DNA from: Coriobacteriaceae bacterium | GTDB taxonomy: Bacteria > Actinomycetota > Coriobacteriia > Coriobacteriales > Coriobacteriaceae | Assembly (NCBI GenBank): GCA_902399975.1 | Contig: CABOHA010000002.1 | Coordinates: 1-64,000 of the forward strand | DNA length: 64,000 nucleotides | Direction of reading: 5' to 3' | In this document: positions 32,446-37,691 of the stretch, one piece after another | How positions within the stretch are numbered: position 1 is the stretch's first letter | How the letters are laid out: the number at the start of each line of letters is the position of its first letter | The notes under the pieces: model-generated | Told to the model about the DNA's origin: nothing | The model's input: only the letters and a program-made list of their open reading frames with translations | Database searches by the model: none | Made by a program: the position numbers and the translations under genes

Positions 32446-32780
32446 CGCTCCTCCCCGGCAACGCCGGCGCGTTTCATAAGCGAACGCAACGCCTTGTCCA
32501 TCTCCTGCGGCGAGGAAACCCTCGTTTTGGGAGTCGCGAACAAGATGATGTCATAACCCGCAACGGGAAATCCACAGCTGCGAGCGGCCTCGCGCATCAC
32601 ACGCTTAGATCGGTTGCGCACCACAGCACAACCGAGTCGTTTAGCACCAACGAAGGCGACCCTTCCGGAGTCGCCTTCGCCAACCGATTCACATATGGTC
32701 ATTCGAATCAGAGGGTGATTGAAACGACGCCCCTGACTGAACACATGCTCGAAATCTTGCCGAGACTTAATAGTCTTCAT
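32442..32780 (-). CDS. rnpA: Ribonuclease P protein component
   Basis: 112 residues. Basic protein cofactor of the RNase P ribozyme, needed to mature tRNA 5' ends. Hallmarks: FEHVFSQGRRFNHPLIRM and the RNA-binding RNRSKRVMREAAR (RNR motif). Sits 20 bases after rpmH. The RNA subunit gene is not in the window. Confidence 0.95.
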   Translation of the reverse strand: MKTIKSRQDFEHVFSQGRRFNHPLIRMTICESVGEGDSGRVAFVGAKRLGCAVVRNRSKRVMREAARSCGFPVAGYDIILFATPKTRVSSPQEMDKALRSLMKRAGVAGEER

Positions 32781-32800
32781 GCGAGATGTGTGTATCGCTG

Positions 32801-32935
32801 CTAGACAGTGAGACGCTTGCGGCCCTTGGCGCGACGACGGGCGAGCACGGCACGACCACCCTTAGTGGCCATACGGGCACGGAAGCCATGGGTCTTGGCA
32901 CGCTTACGCTTATTAGGCTGATACGTACGCTTCAT
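32801..32935 (-). CDS. rpmH: Ribosomal protein L34
   Basis: 44 residues, [19 protein letters not shown] followed by [16 protein letters not shown], the universal bL34 sequence. The ATG at 32935 is set by the exact family start and by AGGAGG nine bases upstream. It is the first gene of the leftward origin operon and marks one side of oriC. Confidence 0.98.
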
Positions 32936-33280
32936 CTTAAGTTCCTCCTGCTGCATTTCGAGTGTCCGCGGGGACGCGGACGCAGATATAGACACGTGAG
33001 CTTGAAGATTGTAGGGAAATCAATGTTCAAATGTCAAGAAATCAAAGGTAAAAGGTTGCAAAGAGTACACGGTTCCCCCATAAGCAGAACCGGCATTTGA
33101 GGCTGCAGGCAACTTTTCACGAAATTTCATCGAGTTTTCAACAGGTCGTGTTGGAAATGTTGAGAACTTTTCGTCCGTTTTCCAAAGTTTTCAACAGGTT
33201 TTGAAAACTTGTCGAAAGATGAGAAACATTGCGCGGTGAGCTACTATTTGTTCAAAACCTTTTGAAAGATTGCGAGCGGC
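32936..33280. other. rpmH-GHKL intergenic region with DnaA-box-like repeats (oriC candidate, left part)
   Basis: 345 bases without a gene. Near-identical 9-mers TTTTCAACA occur at 33135-33143 and 33188-33196, and TTCTCAACA on the minus strand at 33158-33166. They differ from the TTTTCCACA-type DnaA box by one or two bases. TTTTGAAAACTTGTCGAAA (about 33200) recurs almost exactly after dnaA. The divergent rpmH and GHKL genes probably start from promoters here. Confidence 0.55.
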
Positions 33281-34609
33281 ATGTCTGACGACTTCTACAC
33301 CATGGTCGATTCCGGTGATCCGGCACCCGACAACGAGCACATCACCGGCGTGCGCGAAAAACGCAACGAGGGTGAGCAGGTCACCGCACAAGCACCAAAG
33401 GCCATGTATGCAGCGCGCATCGCGGTCTACGACGACATGTTGTCGACACCGCGCGTCATCGTCATCGAACCGCAAGACGTGCGCACCTACTTGGAAGAGA
33501 CAACCAACACCGTCTACCAGTGCATGAAAGAGCAGGGAGGACGCATCTCGCTGATGGTTATCCGCGAGATTGTCGAAAACTTTATCCACGCGCATTTTGC
33601 AGAGCCCATCATCTCGATTCTCGACGGTGGCGATACCATCCGCTTTGCCGATCAGGGTCCGGGCATCGACGACAAAGAGCGTGCCTTCGATTTTGGCGTA
33701 ACCAGCGCAAACAGCAAGATGAAACGGTATATCCGCGGTACCGGAGCCGGGTTTCCCATGGTACAGGAGTACTTGGAAAACGCCGGCGGCGCCGTCTCCA
33801 TCGAGGACAACATGGGCAACGGCACCGTCGTGACGGTAAGTCTGAACCCCAAGCGCGTGCAGGAAATCGAGCGTGCCGGCGGGCGCGGGGCAGCCGTGCG
33901 ACCCGAAGCAGAGCAGCAGGCATATCCCCTAACCAACACGTTTGCACAGCAGCCCGCGGCGCAGCAGATGCAGCAGCCTGGAAGTTTTCCCATGCAAGAC
34001 CCCCAGGCACCGCTGGGCAACGCAATGCAAAACATGCCGGAGGGCATAGGCTCGGCAGATCTGGACACAGGCACCGTGCAGCAGGCGGCGGCCATGTCAA
34101 ACGCCCCGCAAATGGGCTATCAACCGTACCCGCAAGGGTATCCTCCCCAATATATGCCGCAGCAGGGATACGCCCAGCCGTATCCCCAACAGTATCCTCA
34201 GGGATACCAGCAGCCATACCAACAAATGCCCCAGGCGCAGTACAACCCATGGGCCCAGCAGATGCCTCCGCAGCCTTATCAACAGTGGCCGCAAAGTTTT
34301 CAACAGCAGCTGCTGCCCATGCAGAGTTCTCAACAACCAGCAGCTCAAATGATGTATCCTAATGCGGCGAATCAATATGCACAGCCGCAGCAAGACGTAT
34401 TTGTGAGCGAGCGCGGCGAAGCGGCACTGGGCTATCTGGCTCAAAACCAAGAGTGTGGCGCAACCGACCTGGCACGAGCGTTTGGAAACTCAGCGCCCAC
34501 GTGGTCGCGAACGCTCAACGACTTGGCACAGGCCGGCTTGGTAATCAAACATGGCCAGAAATATCATCTGACCGAAATAGGCAGCGCTCGCGTGCGAGCC
34601 CAAAGCTAA
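33281..34609 (+). CDS. GHKL-type ATPase with a PQY-rich linker and C-terminal winged helix
   Basis: 442 residues. The N-terminal half (about 40-195) has GHKL Bergerat-fold boxes: REIVENFIHAHF (Glu99, Asn100), DQGPGID (Asp124-Gly128), and GTGAGFPMVQEYLENAGG. It lacks a histidine-kinase H-box and a membrane segment. Residues about 205-375 are a low-complexity linker of Gln, Pro, Tyr and Met (QGYPPQYMPQQGY-like repeats). The C-terminus (about 378-442) is a winged helix: ALGYLAQNQECGATDLARAF, PTWSRTLNDLAQAGLV. It lies between rpmH and dnaA, 15 bases before the dnaA start, so it is probably co-transcribed with dnaA. I do not know a characterised homologue. Confidence 0.8.
   Translation: MSDDFYTMVDSGDPAPDNEHITGVREKRNEGEQVTAQAPKAMYAARIAVYDDMLSTPRVIVIEPQDVRTYLEETTNTVYQCMKEQGGRISLMVIREIVENFIHAHFAEPIISILDGGDTIRFADQGPGIDDKERAFDFGVTSANSKMKRYIRGTGAGFPMVQEYLENAGGAVSIEDNMGNGTVVTVSLNPKRVQEIERAGGRGAAVRPEAEQQAYPLTNTFAQQPAAQQMQQPGSFPMQDPQAPLGNAMQNMPEGIGSADLDTGTVQQAAAMSNAPQMGYQPYPQGYPPQYMPQQGYAQPYPQQYPQGYQQPYQQMPQAQYNPWAQQMPPQPYQQWPQSFQQQLLPMQSSQQPAAQMMYPNAANQYAQPQQDVFVSERGEAALGYLAQNQECGATDLARAFGNSAPTWSRTLNDLAQAGLVIKHGQKYHLTEIGSARVRAQS
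34276..34335. promoter_or_regulatory. DnaA-box-like cluster inside the GHKL gene
   Basis: TTATCAACA at 34276-34284, TTTTCAACA at 34297-34305 and TTCTCAACA at 34327-34335 lie on the same strand within 60 bases. They are encoded by Gln-rich linker codons, which limits the evidence, but the same 9-mers occur on both intergenic sides of dnaA. Confidence 0.4.
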
Positions 34610-34624
34610 GGAACGGGAGAGACA

Positions 34625-36349
34625 GTGGACGAGGAAGCAAGCATCATCCTGGGAGATGCCATCGCCTTTTGTCAGCGCGACGGCCAAGATGCACGCCTCA
34701 TCAATATGCTGGGACAATCGCGCGCCGTGAGCCTGACCGAGGACACTCTGACGATTGAGGCCCCTTCACGCTTTGCCATCGCTCAGCTCAAAAAGCATCA
34801 GCCGACCATCGAGGCGTACCTAGAAGAAATCGCCTTTGCACCGATTGCGCTCAATATCGTGGCACCGCAAGGTGCCTCGGCAAATACGGCCCCGGACACT
34901 CACCCGGTAGCGACCGCCACCGCAGCGGCGACGCCGGTGCCCGAGGCTCGACGCGACGATGTTTCCCGTGAAACCATGGCGCCGCAGCCGACCGCTTCGT
35001 TCGCACCGGCGGTAGAGTCAGCCCCCTCGCCCATCCCGACCGCAACGCATATGCCCGTCGCACACGAGGCGACACCCGGCGAGGAATCGGGCATTGCAAT
35101 CAAAAACACGTTGTCCGCTGACGATTTCCGCCGCATGATGACCCAAATGAACGGCAGGCCACCGGCGAAAAGCGCGAGTTCGTCCGCAGCGCCGGCAGCA
35201 CCTTCGGCGGCGGCCCCGGCGGCAGTCGAGAAAAACGCGGACGGGGCGCCCCTCGCAGCGAATTCGAAATTCACGTTTGAAAACTTCGTCTTCGGACCGG
35301 AGAACAGCCTTGCCTACCGATCGGCACTCAAATTCGCCATGCTTGCAGACACGCCCGGTACCTGCACGTCGCTGTTCATCTACGGCAAATCGGGCCTGGG
35401 CAAGACGCACCTGCTGCTCGCCATCAAAAATGAGCTGGCAGAGAAATCGCCCGAGATCAAGGTGAAGTACGCCAACTCGCAGGCGTATCTGGACGACTTG
35501 ATGACGGAATTCGACCGCCAAAAGAAGAGCAACGCCCCCATTATGCAGGCGTACCACGGCGTCGACGTGCTTATCATCGATGACATCCAGAACATCATTG
35601 GCAAGCGCGCGAGTGTGGATTACTTCTTCCAGTTGATGGACGAATTTATCCGTAACAACAAGAAAGTCGTGATCGCCGCCGACCGCGCCCCCAAGGACCT
35701 TAATATGGATGAGCGCCTGACCAGTCGCTTTAATGCCGGTCTGCTGTGCCTGGTGGCGGAGCCCAGCTACGAAATGAAGTACAAGATTTTGCAGCGTTAT
35801 TACGAGAACACGATCGCCGCCGCACCCGAGGCGGGCAACGACTCGCTGCTGGCGGCCTACGGGGGCGACGGCGGACATCTGACCGACGCGCACTTCAAAC
35901 ACATGGCCGAGGTCTCGGGCACCAACATTCGCGAGCTCGAGAGCTTTTGCGAGCGTTGTGCCGGCGAAGCGGGCGATCGCGAGCGCGAGGGCGGGGAGCT
36001 CACCTTTGACGACATCGACGCCATCGCCAACCAGTACTTCGACACATCGGCCAAGAAGATCAACGTGCAGACGGTCCAGTCCGTCATCGAGGAGCAATAC
36101 GGTGTGACACACGAGGAACTCATCGGGCCTCGCCGCAACGCCAATATCGCCAAGGCGCGCCATATCGCTATCTACCTGGCGATCGAAATGTGCGAGATGA
36201 CGACGACGGCCGTGGGCGCCGAGTTTGGCAACCGCAACCACTCGACCGTCAGCACGAGCTATAAAAAGGTTCAGAAGATGATTCAGGAAGACCGGACTGT
36301 CACCGAAGATCTCAAGTCGTTGCGCGATAAAATTACACTGCGCTCGTAG
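34625..36349 (+). CDS. dnaA: Chromosomal replication initiator DnaA
   Basis: 574 residues from a GTG with GGGAGA upstream. Domain I about 1-80; a long Ala/Pro-rich domain II about 81-210; AAA+ domain III with Walker A GKSGLGKTHL (about 254-263) and Walker B VLIIDDIQ (Asp319/Asp320); domain IV with the signature EFGNRNHSTVSTSYKKV. Longer than most because of domain II. Positions 34960-34975 inside domain II hold a near-perfect parS sequence encoding DVSRET. It is followed by an AT-rich region and dnaN, the standard origin order. Confidence 0.97.
   Translation: MDEEASIILGDAIAFCQRDGQDARLINMLGQSRAVSLTEDTLTIEAPSRFAIAQLKKHQPTIEAYLEEIAFAPIALNIVAPQGASANTAPDTHPVATATAAATPVPEARRDDVSRETMAPQPTASFAPAVESAPSPIPTATHMPVAHEATPGEESGIAIKNTLSADDFRRMMTQMNGRPPAKSASSSAAPAAPSAAAPAAVEKNADGAPLAANSKFTFENFVFGPENSLAYRSALKFAMLADTPGTCTSLFIYGKSGLGKTHLLLAIKNELAEKSPEIKVKYANSQAYLDDLMTEFDRQKKSNAPIMQAYHGVDVLIIDDIQNIIGKRASVDYFFQLMDEFIRNNKKVVIAADRAPKDLNMDERLTSRFNAGLLCLVAEPSYEMKYKILQRYYENTIAAAPEAGNDSLLAAYGGDGGHLTDAHFKHMAEVSGTNIRELESFCERCAGEAGDREREGGELTFDDIDAIANQYFDTSAKKINVQTVQSVIEEQYGVTHEELIGPRRNANIAKARHIAIYLAIEMCEMTTTAVGAEFGNRNHSTVSTSYKKVQKMIQEDRTVTEDLKSLRDKITLRS
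34960..34975. promoter_or_regulatory. parS-like site inside dnaA
   Basis: TGTTTCCCGTGAAACC matches parS at 14 of 16 bases and is read as DVSRET in the non-conserved linker of DnaA (residues 112-117). Confidence 0.65.
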
Positions 36350-36587
36350 GTAAATGGACACAGCTGTTGAAAACTTGTCGAAACGGCGGTTATAAGATGT
36401 CGAAAACTCGAGCCGCGGTGATGAAAAGTTTTGCGCAGGTTTTGAACGTGGAAAACATGCCCGGTTGCACACAGGTTCCTGTCGATTCTCTTTTTAGGGC
36501 TGACCTGCACTTTTAGGAGTAATCAACAGTTTCGTCAGTACTATTACTATTATTAAGATATTTATATCTATAGAAAGGTATTAAAAG
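36350..36587. other. dnaA-dnaN intergenic region, probable oriC unwinding site
   Basis: Box-like sites: TGTTGAAAA at 36365-36373 and CGTGGAAAA at 36447-36455 (reverse of TTTTCCACG, close to the DnaA consensus), and AATCAACAG near 36521. They are followed by a run of TACTATTACTATTATTA (about 36539-36555) and an AT-rich stretch up to the dnaN ribosome-binding site. The triplet run resembles the DnaA-trio element of the Bacillus subtilis unwinding region. I infer the DNA unwinding element is here. Confidence 0.65.
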
Positions 36588-37691
36588 ATGAAGTTCACCG
36601 TCAGCCAGAGCTCGCTTACGCAAGCCATCGGCGTCGTTATGAAAGGCGTCGCTTCGGCATCCACCCTTCCCATTCTGTCGGGCGTGCTCGTTAAGGCACA
36701 AGACGGCATCTTGGAATTCCAGACCTCCAACTACACCATCTCGATTCGTCATCGCATTGCGGCCCATGTCGAAGAGGAGGGCGAGATGGTGATTCCCTGC
36801 AAGATGCTCTCCAACATCACCAAGACCCTTCCCGATGCCCCGGTCACCTTTGAGCTGTCCGAGCGTCAGGTTTTGATTGGCTGCGAGAAGAGCTCTTTCC
36901 GCCTCAACACGCTCGATGCCAACGACTTTCCCGAGTTCCCGGCATACGCCATCGAGAGCGCCGTCGAGCTGCCGACCGATATCCTGTCCGAAATGGTAAG
37001 TCGCGTATGGCGTGTCACCTCGACTGACAAGGCCCGCCCCATCCTGGGTGGCGTGCACATGAAGGTCGAGAACAACACTGTGCGCCTGGTGGCGACCGAC
37101 TCCTTCCGTCTGGCCGTGTGCGATACGCAGGTCGAGACCTCGACCCTCGAAGGTTCCTTTGAGCTCAACGTGCCTGCCGACGCCTTCAACGACGCGCTGA
37201 GCATCATGGCGAGTCAGGCTACCATCATGATCGGCGCCACCGACACCCAAGTTGTCTTTGAGGCCGGCAACACCACCTACGTGTCGCGCCGCATCGAGGG
37301 CGTATATCCCAACTACAAGCAGCTCATCCCCGATTCGTGCGTGACGAGCGTCAAGATCGACGTAGCCGCCTTTAACGCCGCCCTTAAGCGTGTGGCCGTT
37401 ATCGCGAGCGCCAACCCCGCTGTCAAGTTTGAGATTGACGTCGAGAACGGCCAGATGGGCCTGTCCTCCATTTCCAACGACCAGGATCTGGCACAGGAGA
37501 CGATCGATGTCGAGGCCGAGGGCGAGTCGGGCACCATCGCCTTCAACTACCACTACATCTTTGGCTGCCTCAATGCCCTGTCCAAGGAGAAGGAGATCAC
37601 GCTGGAGCTCAAGAGCTATTCGCAGGCTGGCATCTTCAAGTCCTACGACAAGATCAACTACCTGTACCTGGTCATGCCGGTACGCATCTAG
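36588..37691 (+). CDS. dnaN: DNA polymerase III beta sliding clamp
   Basis: 367 residues. The three-domain clamp: KGVASASTLPILSGVLVKAQDG near the start, SSFRLNTLDANDFPEFP in domain 1, RPILGGVHMKV and LVATDSFRLAVCD in domain 2, and the end MPVRI. It holds polymerase III on DNA and hosts other clamp-binding proteins. AGAAAGG precedes the ATG. It is followed eight bases later by recF. Confidence 0.97.
   Translation: MKFTVSQSSLTQAIGVVMKGVASASTLPILSGVLVKAQDGILEFQTSNYTISIRHRIAAHVEEEGEMVIPCKMLSNITKTLPDAPVTFELSERQVLIGCEKSSFRLNTLDANDFPEFPAYAIESAVELPTDILSEMVSRVWRVTSTDKARPILGGVHMKVENNTVRLVATDSFRLAVCDTQVETSTLEGSFELNVPADAFNDALSIMASQATIMIGATDTQVVFEAGNTTYVSRRIEGVYPNYKQLIPDSCVTSVKIDVAAFNAALKRVAVIASANPAVKFEIDVENGQMGLSSISNDQDLAQETIDVEAEGESGTIAFNYHYIFGCLNALSKEKEITLELKSYSQAGIFKSYDKINYLYLVMPVRI

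Follow-up and report, generated by a model that had tools for sequence, protein, structure and literature searches.

A GHKL ATPase-winged helix gene beside dnaA is a candidate regulator of replication start in Coriobacteriia and other Actinomycetota

We describe a gene, placed directly in front of dnaA, whose product combines a GHKL-type ATPase domain and a winged helix in one chain. Judged from sequence, it is a good candidate for a so far overlooked role in regulating the start of replication. The reading that we prefer, with a probability of about 45%, is that of a soluble protein that binds DNA under the control of ATP, regulates dnaA or oriC, and whose gene opens the dnaA operon. ATP in the GHKL pocket would change the shape or the dimer state of the protein, the winged helix would place it on DNA of the origin or dnaA control region, and from there it would adjust dnaA transcription, the loading of DnaA, or both, according to the cell's energy or stress state. 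Predicted in this scheme are that the protein binds ATP, dimerises and binds DNA, as well as where it binds and how it affects initiation. Domain order, putative active-site residues, purifying selection, strict position and co-divergence with DnaA and DnaN are observed directly. The preliminary description of this DNA had proposed an origin or dnaA regulator, and the comparisons reported here partly support that proposal.

In the window, the whole stretch of 64,000 nucleotides that was analysed, the gene is an ORF with an ATG start at 33281..34609 (+), encoding 442 aa. The architecture claimed before, a GHKL domain, a QPYM-rich linker and a winged helix in a single ORF, is upheld by the ORF itself, its homologues, the Pfam matches and the linker composition. 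The ATPase domain with a conserved N-terminal strand (residues 40-192; 33398..33856, +) is delimited by a PF02518 match and a conserved alignment block, the low-complexity linker (residues 193-373; 33857..34399, +) by composition and omega, and the winged helix (residues 374-442; 34400..34606, +) by Pfam matches and omega. dnaA (34625..36349, +; PF00308 and PF08299 above cut-off) starts 15 bp after the stop of the GHKL gene, which is thus directly 5' of it, as first described. This short gap, together with the fact that no terminator-like site was seen when the + strand of 32700-36700 was scanned, supports the common transcript suggested earlier, and the two genes are probably co-transcribed. 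Upstream lie rpmH (32801..32935, -, identified by translation), rnpA and yidC, all divergent. The rpmH-ghkl intergenic region (32936..33280), enriched in DnaA boxes, is the probable origin and operon control region.

The N-terminal half of the protein belongs to the GHKL superfamily. PF02518 (HATPase_c) covers residues 93-189 of the window protein with 42.6 bits against a cut-off of 26.4 in a Pfam scan, and the same model matches all 31 members of alignment A2 at E <= 0.1. Three motifs stand out, at the residues that had been given for them (Glu99/Asn100, DQGPGI(D) at 124-129, GTGAGF at 153-158): the N-box E96-I-V-E-N100-F-I-H103 (33566..33589, +), the ATP-binding motif D-Q-G-P-G-I (residues 124-129; 33650..33667, +) and the glycine motif R-G-T-G-A-G-F of the ATP lid (residues 152-158; 33734..33754, +). 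E96, E99, N100, H103, D124, G126-P127-G128 and G153/155/157 are invariant in the 71-row alignment A3; in the more diverse 31-row A2 the same residues are invariant except E99, at 90% or more. ATP binding and hydrolysis are predicted on this basis. The glutamate four residues before the N-box asparagine is the general base in MutL, GyrB, Hsp90 and SpoIIAB, and classical histidine kinases carry asparagine there. In our protein this residue is E96, invariant in both alignments. The 13 Pfam matches of the window protein at E <= 1 include no HisKA/DHp phospho-acceptor, in agreement with the earlier claim that a recognisable phospho-acceptor domain is absent, and no sensor domain. They consist of GHKL and HTH-type models, with no transducer (ribosomal S5-like) or further MutL/GyrB/Hsp90 domain, and for A2 none of the 25 listed families, out of 51, is an extra domain of the MutL/GyrB/Hsp90 type. 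The lack of a DHp domain, combined with conservation of E96, N100, H103, D124 and the lid glycines, favours an ATP switch that would act through the winged helix.

The winged helix of the window protein is found at residues 383-436, where the best model is HVO_A0261_N with 30.3 bits, below its cut-off of 35; MarR, IclR and ArsR models also match, all below cut-off. The HVO_A0261_N model matches 29 of the 31 A2 members at E <= 0.1, and in one homologue (L073) the winged helix passes the TrmB and IclR cut-offs. A profile of this domain matches solved DNA-binding regulators, e.g. PhiH1 repressor-like protein, AdcR and IclR. The linker in between (~193-373) measures 181 aa in the window protein, of which 56% are Q, P, Y or M. 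The prion-like character first ascribed to it therefore stands for the window and fails as a general trait: linker length is 20-260 aa in 19 Coriobacteriales proteins, 11 of which exceed 90 aa, and 12-67 aa in 62 homologues of named records. Since the linker is long in only part of Coriobacteriales and short elsewhere, it looks like a later addition, an elaboration of this order, and probably does not belong to the core mechanism.

Lack of conservation beside dnaA in relatives had been named beforehand as one outcome that would refute a regulator of this kind, and the loci compared here show the opposite. The loci were selected by presence of the GHKL gene, not by its position, and 164 were kept after dropping 13 repeats (6 search repeats and 7 named twins), close relatives still being included. 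At least 150 nt follow the gene in 155 of these loci; in 154 of the 155 the following gene is dnaA, in the same orientation, and this holds well beyond Coriobacteriia. The single exception is a locus (L124) whose contig stops 214 nt past the GHKL gene. Seven apparent failures had been recorded earlier; five were a stop-to-stop artefact (L117, L122, L131, L139, L146), in two the sequence ends soon after the GHKL gene (L105, L133), and by profile search dnaA is next in all seven. Measured to the earliest start codon that dnaA could use, the gap has a median of 14.5 nt and is at most 20 nt in 109 of 154 loci. In the f41 family, six loci (L070, L071, L072, L091, L092, L093) share a similar TAATAGAAT...CTGTG stretch of ~50 nt between the two genes, which may be a separate dnaA promoter. 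On the other side, rpmH was found in 154 loci and is divergent upstream in 153 of them, the remaining one (L078) being a long stop-to-stop frame that overlaps the GHKL gene; three loci (L104, L110, L124) gave no rpmH match despite room upstream. Within the same cluster recF directly follows dnaN in 74 of the 102 loci with room, so that our gene is tied to dnaA more closely than recF is to dnaN. In the loci examined, no best match was seen away from dnaA. The whole rpmH-rnpA-yidC / dnaA-dnaN region is syntenic, and position alone is for this reason weaker evidence than it looks. To our knowledge rpmH, rnpA and yidC, also syntenic near dnaA, do not regulate initiation.

Judged by sequence matches, the GHKL gene spans Coriobacteriia, further deep-branching Actinomycetota and one additional lineage. 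Of 58 relatives searched, 53 gave a match at E <= 0.001 and 48 are clear carriers, because five best matches reach only E 1e-4 to 1e-6, an ordinary kinase-like level. A 19-sequence profile at E <= 1e-15 finds the gene in 179 of 196 class genomes and in 122 of 296 phylum genomes; many other Actinomycetota are without it in this phylum search. When named genomes were scanned with a single peptide pattern, 564 matches to the pattern were obtained, 322 of them relatives. The best 80 of these 322 come from Coriobacteriia, Candidatus Aquicultoria, Humimicrobiia, Hakubella and other Actinomycetota, and some of the records bear the labels Armatimonadota, Bacillota, UBP13 or Candidatus Sysuimicrobiota. 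A 16-row clade unites 6/6 Armatimonadota, 3/4 Bacillota and the Sysuimicrobiota row with a support of 100 (FastTree, with long-branch warnings), from which we infer a single lineage or phylum. Six records titled Aeromicrobium, Nitrosymbiomonas, Actinomycetes or Bacillota (L148, L130, L146, L149, L156, L158) fall inside clades of other labels, which suggests mislabelled metagenome bins. Among the best 120 matches, the names given by the sources include ATP-binding protein, histidine kinase, sensor histidine kinase DpiB, predicted HTH transcriptional regulator, anti-sigma regulatory factor and hypothetical protein.

Absence of the gene is also seen. Of the 17 class genomes without a match, 12 were examined: in seven dnaA too gave no match at 1e-20, in one dnaA is truncated where the contig ends, and four have dnaA and no GHKL gene. 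When 46 of the 174 non-matching phylum genomes were searched for dnaA, only one (G243) gave none. Among 50 non-carrier loci, 40 have rpmH and dnaA within about 1 kb and no profile match to the GHKL gene; three of these 40 genomes are Coriobacteriia. Such clean rpmH-dnaA junctions mean that the gene is dispensable in evolution, having been cleanly lost or never gained.

DnaA-box-like sites surround the gene in the window. TTTTCAACA occurs before it at 33135..33143 and 33188..33196 (both +), and two sites, TTTTCAACA at 36365..36373 (-) and TTTTCGACA at 36398..36406 (-), lie between dnaA and dnaN. The upstream sites, noted already in the preliminary description, belong to a strong enrichment: rpmH-ghkl regions hold 33 copies of TTTTCAACA in 17 Collinsella-set regions against 0.0 in mononucleotide shuffles, and 177 TTWTNCACA sites in 73 named-set regions against 3.0. 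Inside the gene, the box search found TTTTCGACA at 33571..33579 (-) on the V-E-N active-site codons, probably a by-product of protein conservation, and in the linker TTATCAACA at 34276..34284 (+) and TTTTCAACA at 34297..34305 (+). TTTTCAACA counts 17 sites inside 17 close Collinsella-set genes. Judged against synonymous-codon shuffles, the close Collinsella set has 35 intragenic boxes in 17 genes, all close relatives, with 5.0 expected; other Coriobacteriaceae have 20 in 21 genes (3.6 expected), other families of the order 6 in 14 genes, a slight excess over 1.4, and distant genes 22 in 80 (13.7 expected). The claim of boxes inside the gene thus holds for the window and is lineage-specific; as a general feature we dropped it, given the distant genes.

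Two further observations concern origin and initiator in the window. DnaA there scores 308.9 bits, under the NCBIfam DnaA cut-off of 343.9, and the boxes around its gene are TTTTCAACA, not TTATCCACA; genomes like this one, which we take to be Collinsella, seem from their sequences to have a divergent initiator and box. The cumulative GC skew of the window (1-64000) has a shallow minimum at ~44-48 kb, some 10 kb from dnaA; it is broad and only roughly consistent with an origin at dnaA.

The control region of carriers contains a palindrome, TTTCCACA-NN-TGTGGAAA, equivalent to two head-to-head DnaA boxes 2 bp apart. In distant carriers (rpmH-ghkl regions of L059-L178) 83 of 97 regions contain it at 13/16 or above; 291 shuffles gave none, and neither did the dnaA-dnaN regions of these carriers (0/84). 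CACA-2-TGTG occurs in 58 of the 97 regions against 0.6. The palindrome is weaker in Coriobacteriales, reaching at least 13 in 6 of 13 other-family regions and in 32 of 38 Coriobacteriaceae regions, and at least 14 in just 2 of these 38. We had considered it as a cognate operator of the GHKL protein and dropped the idea, as 27 of the 40 genomes that lack the gene also have it upstream of dnaA at 13/16 or above (rpmH-dnaA regions of L185-L226, a set without shuffles). At 15/16 or better it is found in 59 of 97 carriers vs 7 of 40 gene-less genomes, a comparison uncorrected for kinship. The palindrome is therefore a general dnaA-upstream element, not specific to carriers, and no operator of the GHKL protein is identified by it. 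Since it precedes dnaA in gene-less genomes and the GHKL gene in carriers, the GHKL gene is probably the first in the dnaA operon, and the arrangement looks like an ancestral dnaA control element that now precedes this gene. A promoter search between palindrome and GHKL gene gave hits in 8 of 83 regions, few cases, vs 0 in shuffles. Both searches left out 13 twins or near-copies among L099-L178.

The protein is under strong purifying selection. In six close comparisons (L001-L004, L015, L016), omega is 0.00-0.056 for the GHKL part and 0.00-0.054 for the winged helix, with 0.18-0.26 for the linker and 0.072-0.155 for dnaA. At dS above 1.2, the values are 0.11 (GHKL), 0.37 (linker), undefined (winged helix) and 0.25 (dnaA) against L017, and 0.11, 0.27, 0.33 and 0.30 against L019. 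At this distance the GHKL part stays the most constrained; the winged helix does not, being as relaxed as dnaA against L019. Over 112 loci, a set that includes 7 twin pairs having all three genes, Mantel r is 0.72 between the protein and DnaA, 0.78 between the protein and DnaN and 0.71 between DnaA and DnaN (each p 0.001). The GHKL protein co-diverges with DnaA and DnaN about as these two do with each other.

We favour a regulator of dnaA or oriC because dnaA is next almost without exception, the motifs are conserved, omega is low, the protein tracks DnaA, boxes cluster at the locus and the winged helix matches known regulators. Against this reading stand the general synteny, the 40 clean absences, the non-specific palindrome, the sub-cut-off winged helix of the window and the omega of 0.33 against L019. 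Some of these points would suit a protein that regulates another regulon, e.g. stress, ribosome or envelope genes, and shares the growth-linked dnaA operon through gene-order inertia; synteny of the region as a whole and the clean absence of the gene from some genomes both speak for it. We consider such a role rather unlikely, as the gene is linked to dnaA more tightly than dnaN to recF within one set of loci, lies in the operon itself, separated by very short gaps, and has no best match elsewhere in the loci examined.

The remaining alternatives concern what the ATPase does. It could be a protein kinase like SpoIIAB, RsbW or CapK, with DnaA or some other partner as its substrate and the winged helix as its targeting module. 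The invariant E96, at the general-base position of SpoIIAB, MutL and GyrB, would fit this, as would weak matches to the SpoIIAB structure 1th8 (23.2 bits) and to TIGR01925 (spIIAB; 10 of 31 A2 members at E <= 0.001). CapK, a GHKL kinase, controls a DNA-binding repressor according to the available part of its description (PMC13373217). This type of kinase is nevertheless doubtful here: HATPase_c_2 (PF13581) matches just 4 of 31 A2 members, with a best E of 0.014, which does not place the family with SpoIIAB/RsbW, and a STAS domain (PF01740) is undetected in 3 of 10 carrier genomes, the other seven having no STAS match at the coordinates of the GHKL gene. Nor does any Ser/Thr column of DnaA follow the presence of the gene. 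The idea of a DnaA phospho-site was dropped, no column being Ser/Thr in more than 80% of 121 carriers and less than 40% of 49 non-carriers (L031 upwards plus the window, leaving out 17 repeats or kin and L182, whose dnaA is cut). An ATP-operated structural clamp of the MutL/Hsp90 type, remodelling DNA or DnaA complexes at oriC, would fit the glutamate too, and the MutL profile match (26.8 bits) and HATPase_c_3 (9 of 31 A2 members) point the same way. We regard it as improbable, since no further domain of that family was matched and the protein has only about 240-310 aa in most of the distant carriers read.

Compared with known systems, the ATP-gated regulator that we prefer differs from each. 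SpoIIAB and RsbW are likewise soluble GHKL proteins with a Glu/Asn N-box, DxGxG and a glycine-rich lid; here there is no STAS match at the dnaA locus, a winged helix is added, and L073 scores 20.2 bits for TIGR01925, far under the equivalog cut-off of 135. Sensor histidine kinases share the Pfam family HATPase_c, and the best solved-structure profile match is one of them, KinB (3d36, 46 bits), whereas our protein has no HisKA/DHp, carries Glu at the N-box -4 position and has a DNA-binding domain in the same chain. Hda, YabA, SeqA, DiaA, Soj and SirA would likewise act on DnaA or oriC. They have other folds and operons, a distinction that we draw from general knowledge and not from sequence. 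Among the literature found, and as far as the available part of the source goes, the closest described system by domains is CapK/CapS, where CapK is HTH-STAS-GHKL, its substrate CapS is a separate STAS-wHTH protein and both lie next to immune operons (EMBO J 2026, PMC13373217). That system shares with ours the GHKL, HTH and wHTH domains and control of the adjacent operon (PMC13373217), which for the dnaA-linked protein is only proposed. It differs, in the text available, in that here GHKL and wHTH form one chain in the dnaA operon: the order is GHKL-linker-wHTH instead of HTH-STAS-GHKL, and the next gene is dnaA instead of capS. We found no description of a dnaA-linked GHKL-winged-helix gene in a search of the open-access literature, with few subscription papers and no bioRxiv preprints, and the available text of PMC13270200 and PMC4072686 does not mention it. 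Within the open-access literature searched, the earlier statement that no system with this architecture has been described is borne out.

A wider proposal, which we put forward tentatively, is that the family may be an ancient, undescribed class of initiation regulator. An ATP switch built from GHKL and winged-helix domains would be made together with DnaA from one operon in deep-branching Actinomycetota and a second lineage, while many other Actinomycetota lack it, and Coriobacteriales would have added a self-associating linker.

Initiation control is known mostly from a few model organisms. Here, a gene that stays next to dnaA throughout much of a major phylum, and outside it too, has only generic database names. 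If the proposed role is true, it would add an ATP-sensing partner to the dnaA operon and make replication control directly accessible in Coriobacteriia of the gut and in Actinomycetota of the environment.
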